This document shows positions 18,606 through 40,798 of a stretch of DNA of 64,000 nt, piece by piece. Under the pieces are notes generated by a model, which saw only the letters and a program-made list of their open reading frames with translations, was not told where the DNA came from and ran no database searches. This DNA is from Cyclobacteriaceae bacterium. GTDB taxonomy: Bacteria; Bacteroidota; Bacteroidia; Cytophagales; Cyclobacteriaceae. Each line of letters begins with the position of its first letter. The first letter of the stretch is position 1. The position numbers and the translations under genes are program-made. The stretch is from the NCBI GenBank assembly GCA_026129485.1, contig JAHCHY010000013.1, positions 62,001 to 126,000 on the forward strand, in the 5' to 3' direction.

Positions 18606-21227
18606 TTATTCATTTCGTAGTGTTTCAGCCGGGCTGGTACGAATGGTTTTGAAACCCTGAATCGCAATCATGGTTAAGGTGATCAGGGTTATTCCTGCCA
18701 GCGCAACGCCAAAAATCCACCAGGGCATCTGGATGCGATAAGCATAGCCCGACAGCCATTGGGTTGTGCTATACCAGGCGAGCGGCAGGCCCGCGAGGGC
18801 TGCTACAGCTATTAATAAGATAAACTCGGTGCTGAGCATGCGCAGGATTTGAAATGAGGTAGCCCCTAACACGCGCTTAATACTAATTTCCTTTCTGCGT
18901 TTCAGCACATTATAGGTAACCAGCCCCACAACACCTATGGTGGTAATTACTAATGAGAGAAGGGTAAAGAACACCAGCATGATGGAAGCGGTTCGCTCGG
19001 TTTTATACATTTTGTCGAAAGCCTCGTCTATAAAATGATACTTCATGGTAAATGCGGGCTCATACTTTTTATAAACTGATTCGATCAGGGCAAACGCTTC
19101 GGCTGTAGTGCCGGGAGCATACTTTACATATAACCTGGAGCATTGCAATAGGTCGTGGGGATACAGGATAACCGGCAGTTGCTCCTGCTTCAGGTTGGCG
19201 GTATGAAAATCTTTTATCACACCAATAATGGTGCACTCTGGATTACCAATGCGAATGGGAGCGCCAATGGGTTCCTCGAGGTTCATCCGCTTTACAGCGG
19301 ATTCTGAAACCACTACTTCAATACGCAGCGTATCTTTTGGCTGTGAGCCAAACATACGGCCCTCCAGCAGGGTAAGCCCGAATGTTTCGGCCATTTCAAA
19401 GTTTCCGCCCAGCAGCTTGAACGGAGCATTCATACCATCGGGCATACCCGGCCAGCTTACGCCAGTGGTTTGTATGGCCAAATTAACCGGATCGGCATTG
19501 GTTGCTGTAACCTGCTTTATCTGCGGGTGTGCGAGCAATTCATTTTTAAAGGCATCATATTGCAGAAGCAGCTTATGCGTGGGTTCAATGTGCAGGATGT
19601 TTTCACTATCCAGGCCCAGGTTTTTTTTCTGAATAAATGATAATTGCTGAAACAGAACACCTGTAAAGATGACAATGCCAAGCGATACCGCTACCTGCAC
19701 AACCAGCAAAACCTTACGCAACTGCTGTGCTCCTGAATGCCGTGTAGTTATTGTGCCTTTTAATACCTGTGCGGGCTGGAAGGCAGACATGATAACGGCC
19801 GGGTATAACCCTGCTGCAATTGTAACCAATACTAAGAAAACCCAGATCCAACTTATCACCGAAATATTTAACAGGCCAATACTGAGCGGCTCATTCGTTA
19901 ACAGGCTGAAATAAGGCAGCAGCAACTGCGCACTGATTACTGATAGCACCAGGGCAACCGCTACGATCATGAACGACTCACCCATAAACTGCATGACAAT
20001 GCTCAGGCGTTGTGCGCCTGTTACTTTCCTGATGCCTATTTCTTTCGACCGGTTTGCTGCCCGTGCCGTGCTCAGGTTAACGAAATTAATTACCGCCATA
20101 GCCACTACCATAATGGCTACTATCCTAAACAGGTTAACATACTGAATCCGGCCCCCGGAGCTGATGCCATTTACAAACTCGCCATGTAACCTCGATTTTA
20201 TAAACGGGAACGCACTGTAGCTCACTTTATCTTTTTTCAGATCGTCTGTAAGAATGGATGGTTCGTTAAGCTTTTCGGTAAGCGCTCCGGGAGTAATGGA
20301 GGTGTTGGTTTTAAAATAAACCGGCAGAAAATCCCTGCTGAAAAAATCAGGAGGAAGTCCGCGCATGCGGGCAAACACTTCTGTGGGAAGCACAAAATCA
20401 AACTGTAAGGAAGAATTAACCGGAACATCCTGAAAAATGGAAGCAATTGTTACCGGAAAGTGGTCATCAATCTTAATGGTTTTGCCGAGCGGATCTTCAT
20501 TGCCATAAAGCTTATAAGCCATGCTTTCGGAGATAGCGATATTACCCGGACTGGCAAGCGGATTTTTATCTCCTTTCAGAACAGGAAAGCTGAACATGGA
20601 GAAAAAGGTTTTCTCCGAGAAAATCCCAAACAGGTAAATACATTCATGGGGCTTGTCTTCCGGCCGGAAACATAATTCATTTGGCCATCGGCTTCCGGTA
20701 ATCACTACAGCTTTTTCCGTAATCTCAGGAATGGCTTCCAGGTTTATATTGGCCCGTGCTGATCCATATGTTTCAAGAGTTCCGTTGGCGTTTACATGGC
20801 TCATTACTTTAAATATCTGATCAGGCTTATGGTGAAACGTATCGAACGAAGTTTCATGCATAATCCACAACCCGATGATAACAGCAGCAGTAAAGCTTAC
20901 CGCTAAGCCGGCTATGTTTAGTAACGAATGCCCCGGCTGCCGAAAGAAATTTCTTACTGCAACTTTAAAGATGTTTTGAAGCATGCCTGTAGAATTAAAA
21001 TATTTTTGTTGTTTACGTTTTCTGATATTTTTCCACCGGCAAAACCGGATTACGTTCCAGATAAATTTCCAATCTGCTTTGCGTTTGCTTACAGCAGCTT
21101 CGCGGTAATAAAGCTCAAGCACATCGCCTTGTATTTCGTCCAGCAGCTCCGGGTTGCAATACCATTCTAAAAAACGGTTGGCCCAGGCTGGGGGAGATGG
21201 TGTTGGTTTACGGCCTGCTGATTTCAT
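18606..21227 (-). CDS. ABC transporter permease with N-terminal permease-prefix domain (MacB/FtsX type)
   Basis: The 873-residue protein begins with a soluble prefix (about 1-75: WANRFLEWYCNPELLDEIQGDVLELYYRE). This is typical of PadR-associated permeases in Bacteroidota. A first membrane helix, a large periplasmic MacB-type domain and two sets of FtsX membrane segments follow, with the motifs STARAANRSKEIGIRKVTGA and LKRRKEISIKRVLGA. It ends PAETLRNE, the family tail. The family couples to a separate ATPase to drive export or mechanotransmission; none is adjacent. It starts 5 bp after the PadR gene, so the two form an operon. Confidence 0.9.
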   Translation of the reverse strand: MKSAGRKPTPSPPAWANRFLEWYCNPELLDEIQGDVLELYYREAAVSKRKADWKFIWNVIRFCRWKNIRKRKQQKYFNSTGMLQNIFKVAVRNFFRQPGHSLLNIAGLAVSFTAAVIIGLWIMHETSFDTFHHKPDQIFKVMSHVNANGTLETYGSARANINLEAIPEITEKAVVITGSRWPNELCFRPEDKPHECIYLFGIFSEKTFFSMFSFPVLKGDKNPLASPGNIAISESMAYKLYGNEDPLGKTIKIDDHFPVTIASIFQDVPVNSSLQFDFVLPTEVFARMRGLPPDFFSRDFLPVYFKTNTSITPGALTEKLNEPSILTDDLKKDKVSYSAFPFIKSRLHGEFVNGISSGGRIQYVNLFRIVAIMVVAMAVINFVNLSTARAANRSKEIGIRKVTGAQRLSIVMQFMGESFMIVAVALVLSVISAQLLLPYFSLLTNEPLSIGLLNISVISWIWVFLVLVTIAAGLYPAVIMSAFQPAQVLKGTITTRHSGAQQLRKVLLVVQVAVSLGIVIFTGVLFQQLSFIQKKNLGLDSENILHIEPTHKLLLQYDAFKNELLAHPQIKQVTATNADPVNLAIQTTGVSWPGMPDGMNAPFKLLGGNFEMAETFGLTLLEGRMFGSQPKDTLRIEVVVSESAVKRMNLEEPIGAPIRIGNPECTIIGVIKDFHTANLKQEQLPVILYPHDLLQCSRLYVKYAPGTTAEAFALIESVYKKYEPAFTMKYHFIDEAFDKMYKTERTASIMLVFFTLLSLVITTIGVVGLVTYNVLKRRKEISIKRVLGATSFQILRMLSTEFILLIAVAALAGLPLAWYSTTQWLSGYAYRIQMPWWIFGVALAGITLITLTMIAIQGFKTIRTSPAETLRNE

Positions 21228-27197: not shown

Positions 27198-27839
27198 TTA
27201 TCTTTTCAGTTTTTCGGCAAACGATACAAAAGTTTCAAAAGTGGAGCTCATCAGTTGATCGAGATCCATCAGGTTGGCTTTGGCAGCGCCCACGTGCGCC
27301 AGGTGGCCGGTTATGCGCAGCATACACAGCCCGTGCATCATGCTCCAGATCATGAACGACATCTGCTCGGTAGCAAAGCCGGGAAAATACCCGATGGACT
27401 GACACTCTTTAACCGTCTGTAGCAAAATATCAAAAGCCCGGTCGCCTTCATCCCATTCCTCAAAGCAATTGGCTACATGCTCAAGCGGCTCTTCCATGTT
27501 GAACAGAAGCTTGTAGGTATCAGGATTTTGCAAGGCAAACTGTATATAGGCGCGCCCCATTCCCTTTAATCTTTCAAAAGGATGCGAGATGTGATTCAGC
27601 ACCTGGAAGTAATCCACCAGCAGCTTGAAGCCCTCGCGGTGCAGGGCGTGCACAATCTCATTTTTGTCTTTATAATACAGGTAGATAGTAGCGGGCGAGT
27701 ACTCGATTTTCTCGGCAATGGCCCTTATCGATGTTGCCTCCAGTCCTTTTTCGGCAAACAGCACTTTGGCTGCATCCAGGATTTCCCGTTTCAGGTCTTC
27801 TTTGTGGCGCTCTTTTCTTTCGGCAACTCCCATATCCAT
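27198..27839 (-). CDS. TetR/AcrR family transcriptional regulator
   Basis: The 213-residue protein has an N-terminal TetR helix-turn-helix: REILDAAKVLFAEKGLEATSIRAIAEKIEYSPATIYLYYKDKNE (quoted in part: IRAIAEKIEYSPATIYLYY). The C-terminal half is a helical ligand-binding domain (RLKGMGRAYIQFALQNPDTYKLLFNMEE). It lies upstream of the tolC/adaptor/RND operon on the same strand with a 33-bp gap. It is presumably the repressor of the pump and of itself, supported by nearly identical 13-bp palindromic sites before both. Confidence 0.94.
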   Translation of the reverse strand: MDMGVAERKERHKEDLKREILDAAKVLFAEKGLEATSIRAIAEKIEYSPATIYLYYKDKNEIVHALHREGFKLLVDYFQVLNHISHPFERLKGMGRAYIQFALQNPDTYKLLFNMEEPLEHVANCFEEWDEGDRAFDILLQTVKECQSIGYFPGFATEQMSFMIWSMMHGLCMLRITGHLAHVGAAKANLMDLDQLMSSTFETFVSFAEKLKR

Positions 27840-27860
27840 GGCAAAGTAAACGAGAAATTG

Positions 27861-27873
27861 TGAACAGTGTTTA
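27861..27873 (-). promoter_or_regulatory. Candidate TetR operator before tetR-type gene
   Basis: TGAACAGTGTTTA, 21 bp upstream of the regulator start, is the near-twin of the site before tolC. A second imperfect palindrome (TTCGGGAAAATTTTTTCCGAA, split here as TTCGGGAAAA and TTTTTCCGAA arms) lies at 27879-27899 and may belong to the divergent receptor gene. Confidence 0.55.
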
Positions 27874-27928
27874 GTAAATTCGGGAAAATTTTTTCCGAAC
27901 TTTAAACTGGTTTTAAAGCGCGTGTGCC

Positions 27929-29833
27929 GTGAAGCGATTTTTTTTCCTGATTAGTGCCAGTTTCATTTTTAGCTGTGTGCAGGCACAGCACCCGGCTACT
28001 TACGATGGTACCGATGAGCGGGTATTCCTGTTAAACGACCTCGAATTCCTGATCGATGCTACCAATAGCCTGGGATTTGATGAGGTTACCTCACCCTCGT
28101 TCGCCAGCCAGTTTAAACGAAGAAGCGCCTACCAGAATAAAGATTACCGCTCGGGCGAATCGTACTGGATACGGTTTACGGTGGAGCATATCTCCTCGGA
28201 GAAGGTGTGGCTGATCGAGTTTTACGATCAGACAATTGATCACATCGAAGCTTACGTGCCCCGGCCGGACGGCACTTATGAAAAGAAGGTGATGGGCGAT
28301 GCCTACCCGTTTCATAACCGGAAGTTTGCGCATAAGAACTTCGAGGTGCAGCTCTACCCGCACGATCCGTCCGTGCAGCATTATTATTTCCGGGTGCAAT
28401 CGCACGAGTTTGCCGATATCCGCATCGCCTTCAGGTCGGTTGACCGCTTCATCTACTATGCCCTGAACGAATACTTTCTGTTCGGCACTTTCTATGGCAT
28501 GATCATGATCATAGCCCTGTATAACTTCCTCGTGTTCATAGCCATTCGCGAGATAAAGAATGTGTATTACATCTTTTATATTATAAGCGTAGCCCTGTAT
28601 GCCATGAGCTTAGATGGTGTCGGGTTTCAGTACCTCTGGCCCAACTGGCCTCAATGGAATGACTATGCCTCCGGTATCTGCCTGTATTCTGTAATCCTGT
28701 GGGCGCTGGTGTTTACGCGCAGGTTTTTAAGCACCCGTACCAAGGCGCCCCGGCTTGACCTTGCCCTTAAGGTAATGATAGTGGTGCGCACCCTTGTTTT
28801 TCTTTTTGAGCTGTTCTTTTATCCTGAATTCTTTGCCTTCCGGTTTATCGAGATCATACCGCTTTCGCTGATCTATTACTCCGGGGTATATGTGCTGATG
28901 CGCGGCTACCGGCCTGCCCGGTATTTTGTTATTGCCTACGGCCTGCTGCTGATCGGGTTTTTCATTCGCACATTAGTGTTCTTTAATATCATTGCGCTTA
29001 CAACGGTTTCGCATTACAGCCTGCATTTCAGCTTTGTGGTAGAGATGCTGTTCCTCACATTCGCGCTGGGCGACCGCATTACGATCTTAAAAGACAATCG
29101 CGACCGGGCCTTGCGCAGAATTATTCACCAGCATGAAGTAAACATGGCTTTGAAAGACAAGGTTACGCGAGAGCTGGAGCAGAAAGTAGCCGAACGTACA
29201 ATTGAGCTGAACAGCAAGAATGCCGAGCTGGAGGAGAGCAACGAAAGGCTGGTAAAGCAAACCCATGAGATCAACCAGATCAATTCCGTACTGGACTTAG
29301 ACAACTGGAAGCTGAAGAACAGGATTAAGGTAGTGCTGGAAGAACGGCTGCTGGAAAAAACGATGGACTATGAAGAGTTCAGAACCTTGTATCCCGATTC
29401 GCTGGCCTGTTACCGGTTCCTGGAAGAATTAAAATGGAGCGGTGAGTTTTCATGCCGCAAGTGTGGTAACTCCAAACATTTTGCGGGCGCCCAGAAATTT
29501 GCCCGCAGGTGCACCCGCTGTGGCTACAATGAGTCTATCACGGCCTTCACCATTTTTCATGGAATTAAGTTCCCGATTGAAAAGGCTTTCTACATAGCCT
29601 ACTTAGCCGTTACCGGCAAAAAGGCGGCTACGCTTGAGGTGCTTTCAACCCAGTTGGAAGTTGGCGTTAACGCGATCTGGGGATTCAGGAAAAAAGTGCT
29701 GGAGCGGATGGCTGAGCTAAGCGAGCTGGGTAACGCGGTAACAGTAACCAAATGGCAGGACATTATACTGGATGTAGAGCACAAAGCCTATAAGCATAAG
29801 CCAAGATCAGCCCAACCAGAAAACGTTTCCTGA
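27929..29833 (+). CDS. 7TM-DISM receptor fused to an IS1595-transposase-like zinc-ribbon domain
   Basis: The 634-residue protein starts at GTG (MKRFFFLISASFIFSC, signal peptide). The extracellular 7TMR-DISMED2-like beta domain (about 25-180) contains YWIRFTVEHISSEKVWLIEF. Seven membrane helices follow (about 185-395, beginning EYFLFGTFYGMIMIIALYNF), then a coiled coil (about 400-470). The C-terminal output region (about 485-605) holds CRKCG...CTRCG (zinc ribbon, Cys about 509/512 and 527/530), then ITAFTIFHGIKFPIEKAFY and a helix-turn-helix-like stretch. The zinc-ribbon block matches the pattern of IS1595-type transposase N-termini. No DDE catalytic domain, kinase or cyclase is present. It lies upstream of, and co-oriented with, the SusCD locus. 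Confidence 0.85.
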   Translation: MKRFFFLISASFIFSCVQAQHPATYDGTDERVFLLNDLEFLIDATNSLGFDEVTSPSFASQFKRRSAYQNKDYRSGESYWIRFTVEHISSEKVWLIEFYDQTIDHIEAYVPRPDGTYEKKVMGDAYPFHNRKFAHKNFEVQLYPHDPSVQHYYFRVQSHEFADIRIAFRSVDRFIYYALNEYFLFGTFYGMIMIIALYNFLVFIAIREIKNVYYIFYIISVALYAMSLDGVGFQYLWPNWPQWNDYASGICLYSVILWALVFTRRFLSTRTKAPRLDLALKVMIVVRTLVFLFELFFYPEFFAFRFIEIIPLSLIYYSGVYVLMRGYRPARYFVIAYGLLLIGFFIRTLVFFNIIALTTVSHYSLHFSFVVEMLFLTFALGDRITILKDNRDRALRRIIHQHEVNMALKDKVTRELEQKVAERTIELNSKNAELEESNERLVKQTHEINQINSVLDLDNWKLKNRIKVVLEERLLEKTMDYEEFRTLYPDSLACYRFLEELKWSGEFSCRKCGNSKHFAGAQKFARRCTRCGYNESITAFTIFHGIKFPIEKAFYIAYLAVTGKKAATLEVLSTQLEVGVNAIWGFRKKVLERMAELSELGNAVTVTKWQDIILDVEHKAYKHKPRSAQPENVS

Positions 29834-30068
29834 AATCCTGTTGCCGTCATGCTTTGCGTACGATTGTTTTTTTAAATGGAAATGATCTGCGATAATGTCC
29901 CGAAATGTTGCTGAAAACGTTTGAAATCAATGTTTTTATTGGATAAAAACAAGATTTTTGCAACTCCCAGTTTGCGGAACTGATTTTTTACTTTTCTGAA
30001 AAAAAATTGGCTATAAATATTGTATATGTCAAAATTGACTATGCGAATAAATCAAATCGCTTAAGTCT
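29834..30068 (+). promoter_or_regulatory. PUL upstream region with two inverted repeats
   Basis: An AT-rich region between the 7TM gene and susC. GTTTTTAT-TGG-ATAAAAAC (29932-29950) is a perfect 8-bp inverted repeat without a T-run, so it looks more like an operator than a terminator. GTCAA-AA-TTGAC (30028-30039) lies 30 bp upstream of the susC ATG. No clean TAnnTTTG was seen. Confidence 0.4.
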
Positions 30069-33000
30069 ATGATGAGAAAACTACTACTAACTGCTTTATT
30101 TTCAGCGTTTTTGCTGGGTACTGCAATGGCCCAGGACCGTGTGGTGTCCGGGAAAGTAACCTCTGCGGATGATGGGACCGGCCTCCCCGGGGTAAGTGTG
30201 CTGGTGCAGGGTACTACTAAAGGAACTGCCACCGATGCCAATGGTTCTTTTTCACTTACGTTGGCACAAGGTGAAAATACGCTGGTCTTCAGCTTTATCG
30301 GGTACAGGACCCAGACTGTGGATGTAGGCGCCCAAACTTCCTTAAACATAGTTTTGGAAGCGGACATCACCTCTTTAGACGAGGTTATTGTGGTAGGCTA
30401 TGGTGTGCAAAAGGAAAAAGACCTGACATCAGCCATAAGCACTATCAGGGCTGACGAGCTGATCAAGACACCGCAGGGTCAGGCCATGCAGGCGTTGCAG
30501 GGTAAAGTAACAGGGGTTCAGATTGTGAACACGGGCGCCCCGGGAAGCTCGCCTACAGTCAGGATTCGCGGAATCGGCTCCTATCCCGGAATCGGGAACA
30601 CAGACCCGCTTTACGTGGTAGACGGAATGTTTTTTGACAATATCGATTTTCTTAACCCGACTGATATCGCAAGCATTTCTGTATTGAAAGATGCTTCGGC
30701 CGCAGCCATTTACGGTGTTCGGGCTGCTAATGGTGTAGTATTGATTTCTACCAAATCAGGTAATTATAACCGGAAGTCGGAAATTACTTATGATGGATAT
30801 GTAGGTACGCAGGTTGCCCAGAACGTGCTGAAGATGGCGAATGCCGAGCAGTTCACTAACATGGCGCTTGAATCCGGGTCAGCGGCTGACATCTCGTACA
30901 TTGATGCAGCCATGCAGCGCTATGGCAGAAGCCGCATAAATCCTAACGTGCCCGATGTAAATACAGACTGGTACAAGGAAATTCTGCGCCCGGCAACTAT
31001 ACAAAACCACAGCATTGGTATATCGGGAGGCGACAAGAATACCTCGTACTCTGTCGGAACCAGCTATTTCAAGCAAGGCGGTATTTTGGATATGAAAAAC
31101 AGCTATGAACGTTTTAATATTCGCCTGAAGCTGGATTATGCCGCCAATGAATGGTTAACTGTGGGCGGAAGCGCGTTGCTGAGCAATGGTATGACCTACG
31201 CACAGTCCCCTTCGGCTTGGAACGTAGCCTACTTTGCCGTTCCGGTTATGCCCGTTATTGATGAGCAGAATACAGATGCTTGGCCGGTACGGTATGCCAG
31301 CGCGCAAACGCTGGGTTACCGCGATGGAAAAAATCCATTCCCTTACATGGATTACAGCAATAACCAGATCAGGACCAGGAAATTGTTAACCAATTTCTAT
31401 GCTAAGCTGAATCTCTTCGAAGACAAACTGACTTTCCAGACTACGTATAACGTGGGTGGCTCGTTCCAGAATGAACGCTATGTAGGGTTGCCCTATTATG
31501 TTTCAAATGCGTTGCAAAGAAACTTGTCATCCATCACTAAAGCCTCCCACAACACCTTCAACCAGATCTGGGATAATGTGCTTAACTATCGCGAGAGCTT
31601 CGGAAATCACAACATAGAAGGCATGCTGGGTATGTCCTATCGTGATGAAGCCTGGGAAAGGTTGTCCGGTTCAGGTAATGAGTTACAATCGATAGACCGG
31701 GAAGATACCTGGTTCTTAGGCCAAACCCCGGTAGAATCAAGAACCGTAACAGATGGAGGTAATCGTATTTATGGCCTTTCATATTTCGGAAGAGCTGCCT
31801 ATAACTATAACGAGAAATACTTCATTTATGCAACCCTGAGAAGGGACGGTACCATGCAGTACCAGGAGAAGTGGGGAACATTCCCCGCGTTTGGAGCAGG
31901 TTGGGTAATTTCGGAAGAAGCCTTTATGAGCAGCTCGCCTGTTAACTTCTTAAAGCTTAGGGCAGGATGGGGAAGACTGGGGAACAGCAGCGTGCCCTCG
32001 AGCAGTGGCGCCAATACATCGGCTGTGGTAACAACAGCTATAAACGGAACCCTTCAGTCAGGCGTGGTTCCTACCAACAACTTCTCGTATTTGTTTTGGG
32101 AAAAGGTGGAAGGCTCTAACATAGGTATTGATATGGAGGTGTTGGGCAACCGGTTACATGTAACCGCTGACTATTACCTGAGAGATACCAAGGATGCAGC
32201 CATCCCGGTTGTTACGCCTATTACCGGGCAAACCGTTTCACGTTCAGTAGGAGTGATCCGGAACTCCGGTATTGAAGTGGCTTTAAACTGGAGCGATGAA
32301 ATAGCCAACGGTTTAAGGTATAACATTGGTGTGAACTTCACCACGGTTAAAAACGTAACGCGCGAAATATACGGCCAGCCTTATATTGATGGCGGCCAGG
32401 CAGAATTCCGCCAGCGTACCATAGTAGGCCAGCCATTGGCGGCATTTTTTGGATATGAAGTGCTGGGCGTGTATCAAACTGCTGAGCAGGTTGCGGCCGA
32501 TCCTACTGCCGTAGCCCAGGGAGGTATTGTACCGGGCGACTTTATTTATAAAGACCAGAACAATGATGGCATCATTGACGAAAAGGATCGCGTAGTGTTA
32601 GGCTCCTATTTACCAAAGCTGACGTATGGCGCCAACCTCGGGCTGAGCTACAAAAACTTCGACCTCGGTGTTAATATTTATGGTCAGAGCGGAAACAAAA
32701 TCCTGAACCGCAAGCGGGGCGAGATCATCTGGACAAACGATGGTAACATGGATGCCGACCTGGCCATAAACAGGTGGCATGGTGAAGGCACCTCTAACAA
32801 GTATCCTTCATCAGCAGGTTTGCGGAAGGCATGGAACCAGAAAATGAGCAACTACTTTGTTGAAGACGGTTCGTTCTTCCGGATTCAGAACATCAACCTG
32901 TCGTACAATATAAAGCAGAAAAATGTAGGCGGGGTTAAGCTGCCGGATATGCGGTTTACCTTAACCGCAGAGCGTCCGCTGACCACATTCAGCTACAATG

Positions 33001-33089
33001 GCTTTAACCCGGAAATTGTGGATGGTATTGATACGCAAACCTACCCGATACCGGCAGTTTATACAGCAGGTGTAAGCGTTAAATTTTAA
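30069..33089 (+). CDS. SusC/RagA-type TonB-dependent outer-membrane transporter
   Basis: The 1006-residue protein has a signal peptide (LLLTALFSAFLLGTAMA) and a CarboxypepD_reg-like domain (VSGKVTSADDGTGLPGVSVLVQG). The SusC signature SLDEVIVVGYGVQKEKDLTSA, a plug domain (GVQIVNTGAPGSSPTVRIRG, PLYVVDGM, ISVLKDASAAAIYGVRAANG) and a C-terminal 22-strand barrel ending AGVSVKF follow. With the SusD gene 9 bp downstream it forms the pedal-bin glycan importer of the outer membrane. The enzymes downstream suggest it imports a beta-glucan oligosaccharide. Confidence 0.97.
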   Translation: MMRKLLLTALFSAFLLGTAMAQDRVVSGKVTSADDGTGLPGVSVLVQGTTKGTATDANGSFSLTLAQGENTLVFSFIGYRTQTVDVGAQTSLNIVLEADITSLDEVIVVGYGVQKEKDLTSAISTIRADELIKTPQGQAMQALQGKVTGVQIVNTGAPGSSPTVRIRGIGSYPGIGNTDPLYVVDGMFFDNIDFLNPTDIASISVLKDASAAAIYGVRAANGVVLISTKSGNYNRKSEITYDGYVGTQVAQNVLKMANAEQFTNMALESGSAADISYIDAAMQRYGRSRINPNVPDVNTDWYKEILRPATIQNHSIGISGGDKNTSYSVGTSYFKQGGILDMKNSYERFNIRLKLDYAANEWLTVGGSALLSNGMTYAQSPSAWNVAYFAVPVMPVIDEQNTDAWPVRYASAQTLGYRDGKNPFPYMDYSNNQIRTRKLLTNFYAKLNLFEDKLTFQTTYNVGGSFQNERYVGLPYYVSNALQRNLSSITKASHNTFNQIWDNVLNYRESFGNHNIEGMLGMSYRDEAWERLSGSGNELQSIDREDTWFLGQTPVESRTVTDGGNRIYGLSYFGRAAYNYNEKYFIYATLRRDGTMQYQEKWGTFPAFGAGWVISEEAFMSSSPVNFLKLRAGWGRLGNSSVPSSSGANTSAVVTTAINGTLQSGVVPTNNFSYLFWEKVEGSNIGIDMEVLGNRLHVTADYYLRDTKDAAIPVVTPITGQTVSRSVGVIRNSGIEVALNWSDEIANGLRYNIGVNFTTVKNVTREIYGQPYIDGGQAEFRQRTIVGQPLAAFFGYEVLGVYQTAEQVAADPTAVAQGGIVPGDFIYKDQNNDGIIDEKDRVVLGSYLPKLTYGANLGLSYKNFDLGVNIYGQSGNKILNRKRGEIIWTNDGNMDADLAINRWHGEGTSNKYPSSAGLRKAWNQKMSNYFVEDGSFFRIQNINLSYNIKQKNVGGVKLPDMRFTLTAERPLTTFSYNGFNPEIVDGIDTQTYPIPAVYTAGVSVKF

Positions 33090-33098
33090 TTCATAAAG

Positions 33099-34649
33099 AT
33101 GATATCTATGAAATCAAAAAATAAAATATTCAAAATCGCAGCATTTAGCCTGGTCATGTTCGGTGCCGCCTCGTGCGATGTGCTGGATAAGTCGCAGCAA
33201 AACCTTGTGTTTGTAGGCGATACGGATTATACGCTTACCGAAAACATGATACAGCCCTTGATTGGTGCGTATGCAGAATTCCAAAGCAGGGGGTGGGAAC
33301 AGTATCCGCTTATTGCTGTACGCGGTGATGATGTGAATGCAGGAGGACTGGGCGACCAGCCACAATTTGCTGATACAGACATATTTATCTACACCGTAGA
33401 TTACTGGATGTATAATTCAGTCTGGCAGGGGATTTATGGAGATGTATTGAACATGCATTCTGCCATGGAAGAAATTGCCAAGTATCGGGAGTTTGCTCCC
33501 AATCCTGCTTTGGCGGATCAATACATTGCAGAAATTAAAGTGCTGCGCGGTTTCTTAATGTTGCAGTTGTCCCGTGTGTGGGGTAATATTTTTATCCCGG
33601 AAGCCTCCGATCCTTCCAATTTCCTGGTGATGTCGCTTTCTACAAAGGATGAGGTCATGCAGCACATTTCCGACCAGATGGATGAAGCTATACCGTTGCT
33701 GGCCAACCAGCGGCCTAACCAGCGGGTTGATGTTACCGGGGGGGTTACCCGGCACACCGCTTTGGCGGTAAAGGCTTTGGCCAACCTGGAGCTGAAAAAC
33801 TACCAGCAGGTAGCGGATGCCACTTCGCAGATCATCAGCTCTAACCTGTTTACCCTGGAGCCAGACTATTACGAACTTTTCAAAATTCCGGGAAAGCTCA
33901 ACAATGAAAATTTATTAGAATTACAGTACACCGATCTTGGGCAGGGATCAGGCCCCTCAACAGGTTATTTGTTTGATTTTTTTGGCCCGCAGGCCTGGGT
34001 ACCCGCAGTAGCCGGGTCAGGTGGTGGCTGGGGCTTCTGGGAACCAAGCATGAAGTACATCAAGTTCATGCTCGATCGTGGTGAGCAGGAACGCCTGCTG
34101 ACCAGTGTAATTTTTACCAACAGGGGCATTAATGCCATTAAAGCAGATCCAAACTATGCTACCCTTCCGGCCTGGATCAGTAACACGACACCCGATGGTG
34201 ATGTATTTTCTGATTATCCCCGTGCCATGTTTGCGAGCGGAAAGCACTATTTACCTTCCAACCAGCTAACACCTGGCCGCACCGGATACGGAACAAACAA
34301 AAACTTTATTTGCATTCGGTATGCCGAGGTTTTATTAATGCATGCCGAGGCTTTAACGCGCGGGGCAAGCAGCTCGGCCATGACAGCCGATGCAGCCGTT
34401 AACTTAGTTAGAGACCGGGTAGGAATGGGGCCGCTATCCGGTGTTACTGCGCAGCAGGTAATGGATGAGAAATATGCGGAGCTGGCAATGGAGTGGGGTA
34501 CCCGCTATTATGATTTAATTCGCCTTGGTGAATATGCTCCCCTGAGCTATGATGGCAGAACATTCGACCCCGGTAAAATCTTTTTGCCATACCCGCAGGC
34601 CCAGCGCGATCAGCTGGCCGTGTTACGTGAAGCGGGAAGCAGCAATTAA
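33099..34649 (+). CDS. SusD/RagB-type surface glycan-binding lipoprotein
   Basis: The 516-residue protein (an alternative start at 33108 gives MKSKNKIFKIAAFSLVMFGA) has a lipobox with Cys in GAASCD. The TPR-like SusD fold is shown by VLRGFLMLQLSRVWGNIF in the N-terminal half and by the C-terminal FICIRYAEVLLMHAEALTRG and DEKYAELAMEWGTRYYDLIRLG. It forms the lid of the SusC transporter and binds the polysaccharide. It is co-transcribed with susC and the LamG lipoprotein gene 21 bp downstream. Confidence 0.96.
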   Translation: MISMKSKNKIFKIAAFSLVMFGAASCDVLDKSQQNLVFVGDTDYTLTENMIQPLIGAYAEFQSRGWEQYPLIAVRGDDVNAGGLGDQPQFADTDIFIYTVDYWMYNSVWQGIYGDVLNMHSAMEEIAKYREFAPNPALADQYIAEIKVLRGFLMLQLSRVWGNIFIPEASDPSNFLVMSLSTKDEVMQHISDQMDEAIPLLANQRPNQRVDVTGGVTRHTALAVKALANLELKNYQQVADATSQIISSNLFTLEPDYYELFKIPGKLNNENLLELQYTDLGQGSGPSTGYLFDFFGPQAWVPAVAGSGGGWGFWEPSMKYIKFMLDRGEQERLLTSVIFTNRGINAIKADPNYATLPAWISNTTPDGDVFSDYPRAMFASGKHYLPSNQLTPGRTGYGTNKNFICIRYAEVLLMHAEALTRGASSSAMTADAAVNLVRDRVGMGPLSGVTAQQVMDEKYAELAMEWGTRYYDLIRLGEYAPLSYDGRTFDPGKIFLPYPQAQRDQLAVLREAGSSN

Positions 34650-34670: not shown

Positions 34671-36413
34671 ATGAGAATGAAATCATTAACATTAAATAGA
34701 ATTGCAGGAATAGCCTTGATAGGCATTATGGGCGCATGTAACGATGGGATAGACCCGATAACGGCTGTTGCTCCCGGACCGGATGAAACAGCACCGGTGA
34801 TTAATGTTACCTACCCGGCTGAAGGCACTGAAATAAAAGTGGCCGAAGTGCTGACATCCATAAACATCAAGTTTGAAGTAACCGATGACATTGAGATCAA
34901 AAGCATCAATGTTAAAATGGATGGTACCGATGTGGCCACATTTAACGAGTTCCTGGATTACCGGAGGTCTGTTAAGGATATTTTATATGAAGGGTTAAGC
35001 ACCGGTGAGCACGTGTTAACGATTGTTGCCACGGATATTGATAACAAGGTAACCACCAAGAATGTCAACTTTGAAAAAACTCCGCCTTATACACCCGTTT
35101 TTGCAGGCGAAGTTTTCTATATGCCATTCGATGGTATCAATACAGAGCTGATCAGCATTACTAACCCTACGGTGGTAGGCATCCCATCTTTTGCCGGTGA
35201 GGGTAAGAAAGGCGGTAATGCCTATAAAGGCGCAGGAAATGCCTACCTCACATTCCCCGCTACTAACCTGACCAAGACCAATGAATTCAGCGCGTCCTTC
35301 TGGATGAAGGTCAATGACGCTCCCAACCGTGCAGGCGTACTGGTTATCAATTCGCCTGATCCTAATTCGACAAACCCCGCTGATCCCAACCTCACGAAAG
35401 GTTTCCGGTTCTTCCGCGAGACTGGCGATGGGGGCAAGCAACGCTTTAAGCTGAATGTCGGCAGGGGAACGGCCAACTCCTGGTTCGATGGCGGGATTAA
35501 CGCTGATGTTGCAGCCAATACCGGTGAGTGGGTTCACTTTGCCTTCTCCATCTCAGCAACCAATGCAGCAGTTTATATCAATGGCCAGGTGGCTTCGCAG
35601 GGAGCCCTTCCCGGCCCGATTGACTGGACGGGTTGCGATCTTCTTTCCATTATGTCAGGTGAGCCACGATTCACACAATGGAACCACAAGTCAGACGAGA
35701 GCCAGATGGACGAATTGAGACTTTTCGATAAAGCCCTTACACAAGCTGAAGTTTTGGCCATTATCGATAGCGATTACACACCGAAATACGCTGGCGAAGT
35801 GTTTTATATGCCATTCGATGCTGACTATGGAGATCTGGTAGGCGGTTCAAATGCAACTGTGGTGGGTTCACCATCTTTGCAAACCGGTAAAGTCGGAAAG
35901 GCTTACGCTGGTGCAGCGGATTCGTATCTTACTTACCCGCTGTCTAATTTAGGATTAGGAAATGCCTTTAGCATTTCATTCTGGTACAAGGCGAATATCA
36001 CCCCTGACCGGGCCGGTGTTATTACGGTAGGCCCCCCGGGTATTAATACCCGCACCAGCGGTTTCCGCCTGTTCCGCGAAAATGGGGCCAACACTTTTAA
36101 AAGTAACCTGGGTATTGGTACCGGAGATTCCTGGAACGATGGTGGCGCTATTTCAGCAACAGACTGGGTATTTGTTACGATGGTAGCAGGAGGCGGATCG
36201 CATGGCATCTATGTAAACGGAACCCTGTTAAGAGCTGAATCAACTTACACCGGAGGCATCAGTTGGGCCGACTGCGAGACTATTTCGATCGGATCAGGAG
36301 CTCCCGTTTTTACAGAATGGGGCCACCTTTCTGATAACAGCCTGATTGATGAGATAAGGATATTTAATCGTAAGCTTTCTGAAGCTGAGATTCAGGAAAT
36401 GATGAATGATTAA
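34671..36413 (+). CDS. Surface lipoprotein with two LamG/concanavalin-like domains
   Basis: The 580-residue protein has a lipoprotein signal (RIAGIALIGIMGAC), an Ig-like module (about 40-140) and two tandem LamG-type jelly-roll domains (about 145-355 and 360-575). Each starts FAGEVFYMPFDG or YAGEVFYMPFDA and ends with DELRLFDKALTQAEV or DEIRIFNRKLSEAEI. Internal repetition shows a duplication. By position after SusD it is probably a surface glycan-binding protein (SGBP) of the PUL; LamG domains bind glycans. No catalytic residues are recognised. Confidence 0.88.
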   Translation: MRMKSLTLNRIAGIALIGIMGACNDGIDPITAVAPGPDETAPVINVTYPAEGTEIKVAEVLTSINIKFEVTDDIEIKSINVKMDGTDVATFNEFLDYRRSVKDILYEGLSTGEHVLTIVATDIDNKVTTKNVNFEKTPPYTPVFAGEVFYMPFDGINTELISITNPTVVGIPSFAGEGKKGGNAYKGAGNAYLTFPATNLTKTNEFSASFWMKVNDAPNRAGVLVINSPDPNSTNPADPNLTKGFRFFRETGDGGKQRFKLNVGRGTANSWFDGGINADVAANTGEWVHFAFSISATNAAVYINGQVASQGALPGPIDWTGCDLLSIMSGEPRFTQWNHKSDESQMDELRLFDKALTQAEVLAIIDSDYTPKYAGEVFYMPFDADYGDLVGGSNATVVGSPSLQTGKVGKAYAGAADSYLTYPLSNLGLGNAFSISFWYKANITPDRAGVITVGPPGINTRTSGFRLFRENGANTFKSNLGIGTGDSWNDGGAISATDWVFVTMVAGGGSHGIYVNGTLLRAESTYTGGISWADCETISIGSGAPVFTEWGHLSDNSLIDEIRIFNRKLSEAEIQEMMND

Positions 36414-36490
36414 TTAATTCGTTCTTAAGATACTGGTGAGTGAACCTCATCCGTTTTATGGTTTAATTTGTTTGTTAGGAGTTGTTTAGG

Positions 36491-36519
36491 AGAGGATACC
36501 GATCCCGGTATCCTCTTTA
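36491..36519 (+). terminator. Hairpin between the SusCD-LamG genes and the glucanase gene
   Basis: An 11-bp perfect stem, AGAGGATACCG (36491-36501) with CGGTATCCTCT (36506-36516), has loop ATCC and is followed by only TTT. It lies 78 bp after the LamG stop and 11 bp before the glucanase ATG. It may be a partial terminator setting lower expression of the downstream enzymes, and it argues against the longer N-terminus. Confidence 0.6.
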
Positions 36520-36529
36520 CTTATCGGCT

Positions 36530-38503
36530 ATGTGGAAGAGATTCTTTGTATTTTTTTTGGGAGTGGTAACGCTTCTCTTTTCGGGTTGTAAGGAAGATGA
36601 AAATATTGCCGCCCTTGAGCTGATTGATGTGTTTGCGGGCTCCGGCAGGCTTGATCTTTTGGGCGCAGTAACTTCCGGCATTCCTGCCGATGTAACGCTC
36701 ACCCTCTCGTTTTCCGTACCGGTTAATCCAGCTTCGGCCAGCGCTTCCATACTGCTGACTACAGAAGCTGGAGCGGTTGAGGTAACGTACAGCTTCTTAG
36801 ATCAGAATAAGCTGGTATTGCTACAACCCGTGGGGGTATTATCAGCCGGTACTATTTATAAGCTTACCCTGACCGATCAGCTTCAGGGGGCAAACGGTGC
36901 CAGCTTTGCTACCCGCGAAGTGAGCTTTAAAACTTTACCGGCCAACCTGCAATTAACGGCAGTGCGCATTAACGGTAATCCGGTTACGGCCGCGCGTGTT
37001 ACAGGCGTGCCGGTTACGGCCCTCCAGGTTGAATACGATTTTTCGGTTGCGCTAAACCCGGCCACGGTTAATAATGCTGTGTTCAGGGTATCAGGCCCGA
37101 CTACCGTATCCGTATCTGCCGAATTGCTGAACGAAAACAAAACGGTCAGGCTTACTTCAGTATCAACGCTTCAGTACCTGGGCCGGTATGTGGCATCGGT
37201 TTCAAATGCTTTAAAAGGAGCCGATGACCAGGCGTATGCCGGATTGCAGCGCGAATTCTACACAGCTTTTGATGTTACCCCCAAGTTCCCGATCATTCCC
37301 GATGAAGAGCTTCTTACATTGGTTCAGCAGCAAACCTTTAAATACTTCTGGGACTTTGCTCATCCTGCCAGTGGTATGGCACGCGAGCGAAATACATCCG
37401 GAGATCTGGTAACCAGCGGTGGCTCAGGCTTTGGGTTGATGGCAATAATAGTGGGTATTGAGCGCGGATTTATCTCGCGTGCGCAGGGCATTGAACGATT
37501 AGATAAAATTCTTGATTTCCTCGAAACAGCCGATCGCTTTCATGGCGCATGGTCGCACTGGATAAACGGTAACACCGGAAAAGTGATTGCTTTTAGCGCC
37601 AACGATAACGGGGGCGATCTTGTAGAAACGGCATTCTTAGTGCAGGGACTGATTACATTCAGGCAATACCTCAATGCCGGCAATGCAACCGAAAGCCTGC
37701 TGATTGCAAGAATCAATGCACTATACCAGGCCGTAGAGTGGGATTGGTACCGGCAGAATAACCAGAACGTGCTGTACTGGCATTGGTCGCCCGACAAAGG
37801 CTGGACTATGAACTTACAGATCAGGGGCTGGAACGAAGCGCTGATGGTTTACCTGTTAGCGGCTTCATCGCCTACCCACACCATTCCCAAAATTGTTTAT
37901 GATAATGGCTGGACAAGAAACGGAGGCATGCAGAACGGAAGCAGCTATGAGGGTATTACACTGCCATTGGGTTATGAGTATGGCGGGCCGCTGTTCTTAT
38001 CACAGTACACTTTTCTCGCGTTAGACCCGCGCAACCTGGCCGATGCGTATTGCTCGGATTACTTTAACCAGAACAGGAATCACTCGCTGATCAATTATAA
38101 ATACTGTATTCGCAACCCGCGCGATTATGTAGGTTACAGCAGCGCTAACTGGGGCTTAACGGCAAGCGATAACCACCAGGGCTATAATGCGCATTCGCCC
38201 ACTAACGATTTAGGTGTGATCACGCCAACGGCTGCCTTGTCTGCATTTCCTTATACGCCTGAAGAGTCAATGGAAGCTTTGAAGTTTTTCTATTATACGA
38301 TGGGAGATAAGCTTTGGGGGCAATACGGCTTTTACGATGCGTTTAATATTACCGAAAGCTGGTATGCAAGCTCATACCTGGCAATAGACCAGGGGCCGAT
38401 TATTGTGATGATCGAGAATCATCGCACCGGGTTGTTATGGAATTTATTTATGTCGGCACCGGAGATACAATCGGGGCTGACCAAACTGGGTTTTACTTAT
38501 TGA
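36530..38503 (+). CDS. GH144-like glucanase lipoprotein with Ig-like domains
   Basis: I choose ATG 36530, giving a lipoprotein signal MWKRFFVFFLGVVTLLFSGC; the longer form would run through the hairpin at 36491. The 657-residue protein has two Big_5-type Ig-like modules (about 30-240) and a C-terminal Glycoamylase/GH144-type (alpha/alpha)6 domain from about 255. Motifs include TFKYFWDFAHPASGMARER, FGLMAIIVGIERG, GAWSHWIN, GYNAHSPTNDLGVITPTAAL and DAFNITESWYASSYLAIDQG. GH144 enzymes are endo-beta-1,2-glucanases, so the substrate is inferred to be beta-1,2-glucan. It is probably on the outer surface or facing the periplasm. Confidence 0.88.
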   Translation: MWKRFFVFFLGVVTLLFSGCKEDENIAALELIDVFAGSGRLDLLGAVTSGIPADVTLTLSFSVPVNPASASASILLTTEAGAVEVTYSFLDQNKLVLLQPVGVLSAGTIYKLTLTDQLQGANGASFATREVSFKTLPANLQLTAVRINGNPVTAARVTGVPVTALQVEYDFSVALNPATVNNAVFRVSGPTTVSVSAELLNENKTVRLTSVSTLQYLGRYVASVSNALKGADDQAYAGLQREFYTAFDVTPKFPIIPDEELLTLVQQQTFKYFWDFAHPASGMARERNTSGDLVTSGGSGFGLMAIIVGIERGFISRAQGIERLDKILDFLETADRFHGAWSHWINGNTGKVIAFSANDNGGDLVETAFLVQGLITFRQYLNAGNATESLLIARINALYQAVEWDWYRQNNQNVLYWHWSPDKGWTMNLQIRGWNEALMVYLLAASSPTHTIPKIVYDNGWTRNGGMQNGSSYEGITLPLGYEYGGPLFLSQYTFLALDPRNLADAYCSDYFNQNRNHSLINYKYCIRNPRDYVGYSSANWGLTASDNHQGYNAHSPTNDLGVITPTAALSAFPYTPEESMEALKFFYYTMGDKLWGQYGFYDAFNITESWYASSYLAIDQGPIIVMIENHRTGLLWNLFMSAPEIQSGLTKLGFTY

Positions 38504-38524
38504 TTTTTGGAAACGAATACTATT

Positions 38525-40798
38525 ATGAAATCACTTTATCCGCTTTTATGTGTGGTCGTGCTTGCCTCATGCGGTGGCCCGGCACAAAAACAATACGGCA
38601 TTGACGCCCGTGTGGATTCCGTGTTAAATTTAATGACACTGGAAGAAAAGATCGGGCAGTTGAACTTACCATCGGCAGGACAGTTTACGACAGGCGCAGC
38701 AGAAAATTCAGATATAGCGAAGAAGATTGAGAACGGGCAGGTAGGAGGATTGTTTAACATCAAGCGTGTGGCTGCTATCCGCGAGATGCAGCAGATAGCA
38801 GTTGAAAAAAGCAGGTTAAAAATCCCGTTGATCTTCGGAATGGATGTAATTCACGGTTATGAAAGCGTGTTTCCCATTCCGTTGGGCTTAAGCTGCAGTT
38901 GGGATATGGAGCTGGTGGAACGCAGCGCCCGTATTGCCGCTACGGAAGCCAGTGCCGATGGTATCAACTGGACTTTCTCGCCCATGCTGGATCTGTCGCG
39001 CGACCCGCGCTGGGGCCGCATTTCAGAAGGTAACGGTGAGGATACTTACTTAAGCTCGCAGATCGCGAAAGCAATGGTAAAAGGTTACCAGGGCGATGAT
39101 CTTTCGGCTAATAATACGATCATGTCGTGTGTGAAGCACTTTGCCCTGTATGGCGCGGCCGAAGCAGGCCGTGATTATAATACTACCGACATGAGCCGTC
39201 AAAGAATGTATAACGAGTACTTTCCGCCTTACAAGGCAGCAGTAGATGCCGGGGCCGGTAGCTTTATGGCTTCGTTTAACGAGATAGATGGTATTCCGGC
39301 AACAGCCAACAAATGGCTGCTTACCGATGTATTGCGGAAGGAGTGGGGCTTTAACGGTTTCGTGGTTTCCGATTATACGGGTGTAAGCGAAATGATTGCG
39401 CATGGTATTGGCGATTTGCAAACCGTATCGGCCCGTGCAGTAGATGCCGGCCTCGATATGGATATGGTAAGCGAAGGCTTGCTGAATACGCTAAAGAAAT
39501 CTGTTGAAGAAGGAAAAATTACAGAGAAGCAGATCACAGAGGCCTGCCGCAGGGTACTGAAAGCCAAGTTTCAATTAGGGTTGTTTGATGACCCCTATCG
39601 CTATTGCAATGAAGAACGCGCTAAAGCCGAAGTGTTTACAGCAGCCAACCGGGCAGAAGCGCGTAAAGCCGCTACTGAAAGCTTTGTATTGCTGAAAAAT
39701 GAAGGCAACATTTTGCCATTGAAAAAAGCAGGCACTATTGCCGTAATCGGCCCGCTGGCTAACAATCGTGAAAACATGACGGGCACGTGGAGCGTAGCGG
39801 CCCGCTTTTCAGAATCTGTTTCTGTAATGGAAGGCTTGACCAAAGCGGTTGGCAATTCGGCTAAGCTGGTGTATGCGCGTGGCTCAAACCTGCACGAAGA
39901 TGCAGCTATTGAAGAACGGGCCACCATGTTTGGAAAATCATTGAACCGCGATAAGCGTTCGGCAGAGGAGATGCGCAGTGAAGCCGTGCGTGTTGCGCGT
40001 TCGGCTGATGTAATTGTGGCTGTAATAGGAGAGGGTGCCGAGATGAGCGGTGAAGCCAGCAGCGTAACCAATCTTGAGCTTCCGCAAACGCAACGCGAGC
40101 TGTTGAAAGCATTGTTGCAAACAGGTAAGCCTGTGGTAGTGGTTCTGTTCACCGGCAGACCATTGGTTTTGAAGTGGGAAAATGAGAACCTGCCTGCTAT
40201 GCTTAACGTATGGTTTGGCGGAAGCGAAGCAGGCGATGCCATTGCTGATGTATTGTTTGGAGATGTAAACCCTTCCGGTAAGCTGAGCACTACATTCCCG
40301 CAGAATGTAGGGCAGGTACCGTTGTATTATGCGCATAAAAATACCGGCCGTCCGCTCAGGGGCCCCTGGTTCCAGAAGTTTCAATCCAATTATATCGATG
40401 TTTCAAACGACCCGGTTTACCCGTTTGGCTATGGCTTGAGCTATACTTCGTTTATATATGGCGATGTGAAGCTGGATAAATCATCCATCACGCCTGCAGA
40501 AACACTTACGGTTTCGGTTGATGTAACCAACACCGGTAAATATGACGGGGCAGAAGTGGTGCAGCTTTATGTGCGCGATTGGGTGGGTTCCGTTACCCGG
40601 CCGGTTAAGGAATTGAAAGGATTTAAGAAGGTGATGATTAAGGCAGGTGAAACCAAAACCGTAACATTTCAATTAACCAAAGAAGACCTTTCTTTTTACA
40701 ATTATGATTTGAAATGGGTTGCCGAACCGGGTGAGTTCAGTGTGCTTGTGGGTGGTAATTCAAGCGATGTGAAGGAAGCGAAGTTTACGCTGGAGTAA
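38525..40798 (+). CDS. bglX: Glycoside hydrolase family 3 beta-glucosidase
   Basis: I choose ATG 38525 (MKSLYPLLCVVVLASC, lipoprotein signal) over 38507. The 757-residue protein has the GH3 N-terminal barrel (LMTLEEKIGQLN, GMDVIHGYESVFPIPLGLSC, DPRWGRISEGNGED), the catalytic nucleophile Asp in GFNGFVVSDYTGV, the GH3 C-terminal domain (VIGEGAEMSGEASSVTNLEL) and a fibronectin-like tail (PFGYGLSYTSF). It cleaves terminal glucose from short beta-glucosides. Next to a GH144-like enzyme it would take sophoro-oligosaccharides to glucose. The gap from the glucanase stop is 21 bp, so the two share a transcript. Confidence 0.93.
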   Translation: MKSLYPLLCVVVLASCGGPAQKQYGIDARVDSVLNLMTLEEKIGQLNLPSAGQFTTGAAENSDIAKKIENGQVGGLFNIKRVAAIREMQQIAVEKSRLKIPLIFGMDVIHGYESVFPIPLGLSCSWDMELVERSARIAATEASADGINWTFSPMLDLSRDPRWGRISEGNGEDTYLSSQIAKAMVKGYQGDDLSANNTIMSCVKHFALYGAAEAGRDYNTTDMSRQRMYNEYFPPYKAAVDAGAGSFMASFNEIDGIPATANKWLLTDVLRKEWGFNGFVVSDYTGVSEMIAHGIGDLQTVSARAVDAGLDMDMVSEGLLNTLKKSVEEGKITEKQITEACRRVLKAKFQLGLFDDPYRYCNEERAKAEVFTAANRAEARKAATESFVLLKNEGNILPLKKAGTIAVIGPLANNRENMTGTWSVAARFSESVSVMEGLTKAVGNSAKLVYARGSNLHEDAAIEERATMFGKSLNRDKRSAEEMRSEAVRVARSADVIVAVIGEGAEMSGEASSVTNLELPQTQRELLKALLQTGKPVVVVLFTGRPLVLKWENENLPAMLNVWFGGSEAGDAIADVLFGDVNPSGKLSTTFPQNVGQVPLYYAHKNTGRPLRGPWFQKFQSNYIDVSNDPVYPFGYGLSYTSFIYGDVKLDKSSITPAETLTVSVDVTNTGKYDGAEVVQLYVRDWVGSVTRPVKELKGFKKVMIKAGETKTVTFQLTKEDLSFYNYDLKWVAEPGEFSVLVGGNSSDVKEAKFTLE

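Follow-up and report, generated by a model that had tools for sequence, protein, structure and literature searches.

Within the window, a stretch of 64,000 nucleotides from the genome of a Cyclobacteriaceae bacterium (GenBank assembly GCA_026129485.1, contig JAHCHY010000013.1, positions 62,001 to 126,000), one gene joins a membrane receptor of the 7TMR-DISM type to the zinc ribbon and helix-turn-helix (HTH) of IS1595-type transposases. This fusion gene is followed by a polysaccharide utilization locus (PUL), which encodes a SusC/SusD pair, a putative surface glycan-binding protein and two enzymes, namely a member of PF10091, presumably equivalent to the endo-beta-1,2-glucanase family GH144, and a GH3 beta-glucosidase. 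As the original prediction had stated, the gene lies just upstream of SusCD and in the same orientation, susC starting 235 bp past its end. A TetR gene and an RND efflux system lie upstream of it and are divergent. The positions of the features are collected in Table 1.

Table 1. Features of the fusion gene, the gap behind it and the PUL (positions in the window; ORF, open reading frame; TM, transmembrane)
Feature	Position	Strand	Basis
7TMR-DISM / IS1595 zinc ribbon-HTH fusion gene	27929..29833	+	ORF, GTG start, 634 aa
7TMR-DISMED2, predicted periplasmic sensor domain	28037..28426	+	residues 37-166; Pfam E 1.8e-26, 93.2 bits, cut-off 22
7TMR-DISM_7TM membrane domain	28469..29077	+	residues 181-383; Pfam E 4.7e-45, 154.5 bits, cut-off 29
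Continuous predicted helix, last TM segment into the cytoplasm	29003..29350	+	residues 359-474; AlphaFold
IS1595-type zinc ribbon PF12760 (Zn_ribbon_IS1595), CxxC-x15-CxxC	29402..29527	+	residues 492-533; 28.9 bits, curated cut-off 25.4
HTH of the transposase N-terminal module	29576..29725	+	residues 550-599; NF033547 positions 3-53 and AlphaFold
Weak possible second operator copy, degenerate	29866..29885	+	64 bp upstream of the main site; score -0.8 bits, uncertain
Candidate operator AACGTTTGAAATCAATGTTTTTATTGGATAAAAAC	29916..29950, core 29918-29937	+	conservation; only site with 0-1 mismatch in the genome
susC (OMP_RagA_SusC, TIGR04056)	30069..33089	+	NCBIfam E 6.9e-233
susD (PF07980)	33099..34649	+	Pfam
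Laminin_G_3 / Big_7 (LamG) protein, putative surface glycan-binding protein	34671..36413	+	Pfam
PF10091 'Glycoamylase' enzyme	36482..38503	+	Pfam E 4.1e-78
GH3 beta-glucosidase (BglX-like)	38507..40798	+	Pfam, NCBIfam

The protein carries a signal peptide at its N-terminus, and Pfam recognizes DISMED2, the 7TM domain and PF12760 in it, which bears out the earlier description of a 7TM-DISM receptor with a transposase-type zinc-ribbon tail; the ribbon was rightly called, while the spacing between its cysteine pairs is x15 and not the x14 given at first. Behind the ribbon, the NCBIfam model of IS1595 transposases (NF033547) matches residues 547-596 at model positions 3-53 of 215 (E 8.4e-5, 22.5 bits, cut-off 75), a score far under the cut-off, in keeping with the presence of the model's N-terminal end alone. 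The rest of the model is unmatched and no DDE/ISXO2-like nuclease occurs in the protein, which is thus not a transposase. Kinase, receiver, AraC, sigma and anti-sigma domains do not rise above threshold in it with Pfam or NCBIfam, and a weak match to the sensor-kinase model NF011874 falls on the linker helix (11.6 bits vs a cut-off of 852). The output domain of this receptor is the ribbon-HTH, neither a kinase nor a cyclase.

Cysteines 509, 512, 528 and 531 are invariant in an alignment of 26 rows, as are L408, L416, E417, T424 and L462 of the linker helix. Of 97 fusion proteins, 96 have the pattern CxxC-x(12-20)-CxxC; the sole miss (L090) is truncated by the end of its contig. The architecture is kept in relatives as distant as 27-40% identity, and is therefore not a product of chance. 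The full-length AlphaFold model based on the 26-row alignment (mean predicted local distance difference test score, pLDDT, 80.6; predicted template modelling score, pTM, 0.59) places a three-helix unit (550-562/569-576/580-599) after the zinc ribbon, and residues 475-610 modelled alone reach a pLDDT of 88.8. Judged from domain matches and predicted fold, a sensor, a membrane anchor and a predicted DNA-binding domain are combined in one chain. The helix of about 115 residues that separates the 7TM domain from the ribbon-HTH is likely a signalling helix, forming the coiled coil of a presumed dimer. The same long helix, together with a segment below pLDDT 50 ahead of the module (residues 462-477), would also suit a mechanism whereby regulated proteolysis frees the ribbon-HTH as a soluble factor, and a stand-alone ribbon-HTH relative of 151 aa does exist (gene L242). 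Such release is judged rather unlikely, as the invariant linker residues fit the transfer of a signal through an intact dimer better.

The ribbon and the helices downstream of it align in register with IS1595-type proteins of full length found in related genomes (L062-L064), and the fusions stop before the catalytic part of the alignment. A quick tree was built from 81 ribbon-HTH modules, 41 of the 97 fusions among them (141 columns, rooted at the midpoint, of limited resolution). In it, the 41 fusions and the stand-alone protein form one group with support 98, and a wider group with support 99 adds three transposases of the IS1595 family and a family of relatives apparently devoid of catalytic activity. 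That the fusions group with IS1595 transposases agrees with a module taken over from a transposase's DNA-binding end, and domain content and tree together support a capture of the module from an IS1595 transposase minus its nuclease. Pfam, NCBIfam, alignment and tree all liken the C-terminus to IS1595 ribbons, in agreement with the original prediction of an IS1595-type N-terminus devoid of a DDE nuclease. A module of transposase origin could also be imagined as a remnant without function, left when a transposase inserted into the gene of a receptor, a view rendered barely credible by the four invariant cysteines, the near-universal CxxC pair and the strict linkage to PULs in several bacterial groups.

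Two side observations concern relatives of the module. The neighbouring ORFs printed for the stand-alone gene (L274:1197-1649) look unrelated to PULs by eye. One genome contains a set of thirteen diverged IS1595-like proteins (L262-L273; L241 is the same gene as L262) of 306-339 aa, with 150-162 bits to the fusion module. By eye, the first two catalytic acidic positions look lost in the eight of this set that were inspected; a script found the DE-type motif in 0 of the 12 proteins L262-L273, and SusC, SusD, PF10091 and GH3 gave no match within 2.5-3.7 kb around the twelve genes. The set is possibly another lineage of domesticated transposases.

The distribution of the fusion was surveyed by a scan of one genome per species over 84,980 species, which gave at least 522 relatives among at least 592 candidate stretches, and the best 80 of the 522 were analysed. 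All 80 are fusions, one of them (L090) being cut by a contig end; they belong mainly to Cyclobacteriaceae, other Cytophagales, Pedobacter and Chitinophaga, and the metagenome-derived L074, L081 and L126 are labelled as other groups. Two stretches (L086, L090) end at the fusion gene, leaving 78 loci with downstream sequence. A purpose-built profile places SusC directly after the fusion gene in 72 of these when ORFs below 120 aa are ignored, and in 70 when ORFs from 80 aa count; the match in L074, one of the counted loci, is weak. The gap between the two genes has a median of 253 bp (65 loci counted). The linkage persists where SusC is at 31-35% identity and the upstream genes are different, the TetR/RND genes being missing upstream of the fusion in most relatives examined. 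A paralogue elsewhere in the window's own genome (L053) is also linked to a PUL, which contains GH30.

As the best 80 owe their selection to their likeness to the window protein, 296 genomes sampled evenly from the phylum were added. The module profile matched 44 of them, and frames of fusion length were found in nine (10 genes); all ten have SusC on the same strand no more than three genes downstream, and in six it follows directly. As a control, 20 ribbon-less 7TMR-DISM genes were hand-picked from a longer list, and SusC or SusD occurs among the next up to four ORFs in none of them. The fusions are strongly linked to PULs and the 20 ribbon-less 7TM receptors examined are not, so that the association on which the original prediction depended holds. 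Remoter members without SusC stand beside genes for GH9 (L055), a sulfatase (L056), GH3 (L058), GH64/GH5 (L059) and GH64 (L061); L052 has a subtilase gene and a gene of no assigned family on its upstream side, and L060 has a PKD-domain protein downstream.

In the gap between the regulator and the downstream gene, conservation reveals a candidate operator, which falls inside the region 29834-30068 proposed earlier as the target. The gap set for the first motif detection left out L097 and L102 for length, and the 13-mer core AATCAATGTTTTT was picked after viewing 18 of the gaps. This core occurs within two mismatches in 38 of 84 non-identical gaps (about 3.9 expected by Markov resampling) and exactly in 18 of the 84 (0.02 expected). 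With no more than one mismatch, CGWTTGWAATCAATGTTTTT has a single site in this genome, the core given in Table 1, and across 40 genomes of the genus all ten such sites among the matches listed fall between fusion and susC. Motif searches by clade yielded AACGtTTgaAATCaATGTTTTT...Gt.AAA in near relatives ('near'), TGtTaTTaAAGCGt.A in other Cytophagales ('mid') and GGTAyt.AAGCGTATCA in Pedobacter/Chitinophaga ('ped'), their log-likelihoods being higher than in resampled controls by a factor of about 2 to 5. Motif strength per sequence is 8.1-15.4 log units in the gap and only 3.5-6.4 in the region upstream of the same genes, so the gap motif goes beyond mere relatedness. A control stretch of coding region reached 13.5-16.3 log units per sequence, level with the gap or above, as is expected of conserved coding sequence; the fair comparison is therefore the upstream non-coding flank. 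Autoregulation was considered and dropped, no motif of comparable strength being found upstream of the regulator gene.

The near clade is recognized by the mid matrix, with 16 of 44 above the 99th percentile and a z of 14. Patterns derived from the loci find their exact sites almost exclusively there: 14 of 16 sites in eight genomes of Pedobacter/Chitinophaga are at these loci, as are 6 of 6 in a further seven genomes, one of them without any site. Two exact GGTANYNAAGCGTATCA sites, in two genomes (L180, L189), lie off the fusion locus and may be further targets; the flank of L180 shows a weak SusC-like match. The operator was also sought as a transposon end: a script found no inverted repeats around three IS1595-type genes, and the search was extended to 23 further loci, where the repeats of the multi-copy elements L278-L280 and L281-L283 and of L276 are unlike the operator motif by eye; since terminal repeats of transposons diverge fast, an origin there may no longer show. 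As to viral copies, two stretches of viral contigs matched the search patterns, and neither encodes a relative.

The operator tends to occur in tandem. A second copy on the same strand with a score above 0 is found 64-66 bp off in 14 of 18 testable regions of the mid clade (0.27 expected) and 14 of 34 of the near clade (0.82 expected), and 91-93 bp off in 8 of 13 of the ped clade (0.28 expected), the expected counts being taken from other offsets. Second copies above 8 bits number 11 of 18 in mid, 3 of 34 in near and 1 of 13 in ped. The mid scoring matrix used in the scans for second copies, promoter boxes and remote loci was made from 19 of the 23 mid sites, L098, L109, L110 and L115 being left out by hand. 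An RNA leader or a core promoter element, instead of an operator, would account for the orientation of the element, which is fixed relative to the downstream gene in the near and mid clades. This is quite unlikely in view of the direct repeats with fixed spacing, lying for the most part some 100-230 bp and at most about 480 bp away from the start codon, of the element's presence ahead of other first genes (an esterase in L117, GH30 in L120), and of the result with Rfam, which at gathering threshold gave no family in 27800-30200.

The type of operator follows the type of recognition helix. Regulators with an HTH of the RQSTCW type have GCGTATCA in 17 of 19 gaps (0.04 expected), as against 1 of 65 for other regulators (0.10 expected), and TGTTTTT is present in 52 of the 65 gaps of the non-RQSTCW regulators (12 expected). 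Among the 19 are two paralogues from Cytophagales, namely L054 and, in the window's own genome, L053, which carry two GCGTAT(C/T)A sites apiece and group with Pedobacter/Chitinophaga proteins in the tree (support 95). This division is also reflected in the enzymes. GH30 is found in all five RQSTCW loci that were enzyme-scanned (L053, L127, L129, L131, L135), and a PF10091-like gene, recognized by another purpose-built profile, occurs no more than 11 kb away in 53 of 63 non-RQSTCW loci and in 0 of 17 RQSTCW loci. In the window's genome, each of the two paralogues seems to have a helix type, an operator type and an enzyme set of its own. The sequences distinguish at least two putative receptor-operator-PUL lineages, one mostly with PF10091/GH3 PULs and one with GH30 PULs.

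These results bear on a further possibility, namely that the ribbon-HTH touches a protein partner, be it RNA polymerase, a sigma factor or a different regulator, and that the gap motif is the site of that factor. Upstream genes vary by locus, and as far as examined there is no shared neighbouring regulator, most neighbours being unannotated; the motif type follows the recognition-helix type of the fusion itself; and the same module is the N-terminal part of the transposase in the source family, where it serves in DNA binding. Action through a partner is hence considered unlikely.

The fusion probably acts as a membrane-bound one-component transcription regulator of the adjacent glucan PUL. The original prediction of a membrane-tethered regulator of this kind gains support from the ribbon-HTH and from the PUL linkage. 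In the mechanism proposed, the periplasmic DISMED2 would bind an oligosaccharide, presumably a gluco-oligosaccharide, released by the PUL enzymes and imported by SusCD. The signal would pass via the seven TM segments and the long predicted helix, probably a dimeric coiled coil, to the ribbon-HTH in the cytoplasm, which would stay tethered to the membrane, bind one or two copies of the operator of about 20 bp between its own gene and susC, and control, most likely activate, the operon of susCD and enzymes. Of these steps, the sign of control is the least secure, since the promoter could not be located. On a wider scale, it is likely that such proteins make up a further class of PUL regulators widespread in Bacteroidota, in which a 7TM receptor and a domesticated IS1595 DNA-binding module act on tandem operators, and in which recognition helix, operator and glucan specificity have diversified together into sets readable from genomes.

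Several observations weigh against this interpretation. Foldseek found no match for the ribbon-HTH module in the PDB at E 0.001 or less. SusC is not next door in six of the 78 loci: a radical SAM gene is next in L097, L101 adjoins a 7TMR-DISM histidine kinase, L102 is followed by an esterase, PF10091, one more gene and then SusC, SusC is divergent in L116, an esterase precedes it in L117, and GH30 is next in L120. The motif transfers clearly from the mid to the near clade only; the counts are 0 of 23 from near to mid, 0 of 17 from near to ped, 4 of 44 from ped to near and 1 of 23 from ped to mid, and the 5 of 17 from mid to ped are hardly strand-specific. Since these other transfers are weak, the reading of the three clade motifs as one site is limited to two clades, for which it is likely; for the third it is only suggested. 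Among ten exceptional or remote loci (11 regions) scanned with the mid matrix, scores above 10 bits are limited to L102 (14.3) and L060 (12.9, on the other strand). Strong second copies are few in the near and ped clades, that of the window is itself degenerate, and the RQSTCW-type Cytophagales paralogues space their sites by 78 and 80 bp, not 91-93. Promoter boxes of the form TAnnTTTG are not consistently placed in the gap regions. The CGTTTG part of the operator is loosely like LacI-type half-sites, and the operator could belong to another factor. Few independent events lie behind the association of helix and operator, because lineage, helix and operator are inherited together, the paralogues going with Pedobacter/Chitinophaga.

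Elsewhere in the window, a protein with a Cthe_2159-type carbohydrate-binding domain (PF14262) is encoded at 51439-53436, about 10.6 kb past the PUL. Four genes resemble MacB_PCD/FtsX ABC permeases (18606-21227, 43806-46217, 46237-48705 and 48829-51243), three of them in tandem.

A comparison with known systems shows both shared and distinct features. The fusion has in common with 7TMR-DISM receptors (PF07695/PF07696) the signal peptide, DISMED2 and the 7TM domain, with both Pfam domains above their curated cut-offs, and differs from them in its IS1595 ribbon-HTH output. The usual outputs of these receptors are kinases, cyclases, phosphodiesterases and phosphatases. Examples met in this work are L030, with a C-terminus that looks PP2C-like by eye, and the histidine kinase beside L101, whose gene is divergent from the fusion gene (L101:7817-11830), so that two related receptors are adjacent. 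With IS1595 transposases (NF033547, PF12760) the fusion shares the N-terminal ribbon and HTH module, which aligns with theirs and, in the tree, clusters with part of them, yet it has no DDE domain, is joined to a receptor and stands at a PUL locus conserved between species.

A closer parallel in architecture is the ChiS family of proteobacteria, whose DNA-binding domain occurs with 7TMR-DISM among its architectures (PMC8092284). Like the fusion, these are sensory membrane proteins, some with 7TMR-DISM, that end in a DNA-binding domain, predicted in the fusion and sequence-specific in ChiS; unlike it, they are proteobacterial and have a different HTH variant, and the parts of that report drawn on here mention neither a zinc ribbon nor a PUL setting (PMC8092284). 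The fusion model consists of a zinc ribbon and a plain three-helix unit and ChiS of a helix-sheet-helix, a distinction drawn from descriptions of the two. As 7TMR-DISM together with a DNA-binding domain is known from ChiS-type domains, the fusion is not categorically new. No description of this particular fusion was found in the literature searched; the 2003 paper that defined 7TMR-DISM lies outside that search and could mention one.

Canonical control of hemicellulase genes is ascribed in a review to hybrid two-component systems (HTCS), extracytoplasmic function (ECF) sigma/anti-sigma pairs and catabolite repression (PMC10766802). The fusion is like SusR, HTCS and ECF sigma-anti-sigma regulators in being encoded at a SusCD-enzyme locus, and unlike them in that it contains no kinase, receiver, AraC HTH or sigma domain and has another sensor fold and another DNA-binding domain. 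In Bacteroides thetaiotaomicron, the SusR-type regulator BT3309 lies with SusCD, GH30_3 and GH3 at a beta-1,6-glucan locus (PMC5481569). The Pedobacter locus L127 has GH30 and GH3, the same broad enzyme families, behind a 7TM-ribbon protein. The proposal that the fusion stands 'in place of' HTCS, ECF/anti-sigma or SusR regulators draws on this one comparison with B. thetaiotaomicron. The predicted operator makes the idea of DNA binding directly testable. If the interpretation is true, receptor, operator and target glucan may be assigned from sequence in genomes of Cyclobacteriaceae, Pedobacter and Chitinophaga, a membrane receptor would have gained its output from the DNA-binding module of a transposase, and a further type of regulator would join HTCS, ECF and SusR in glycan foraging by Bacteroidota.
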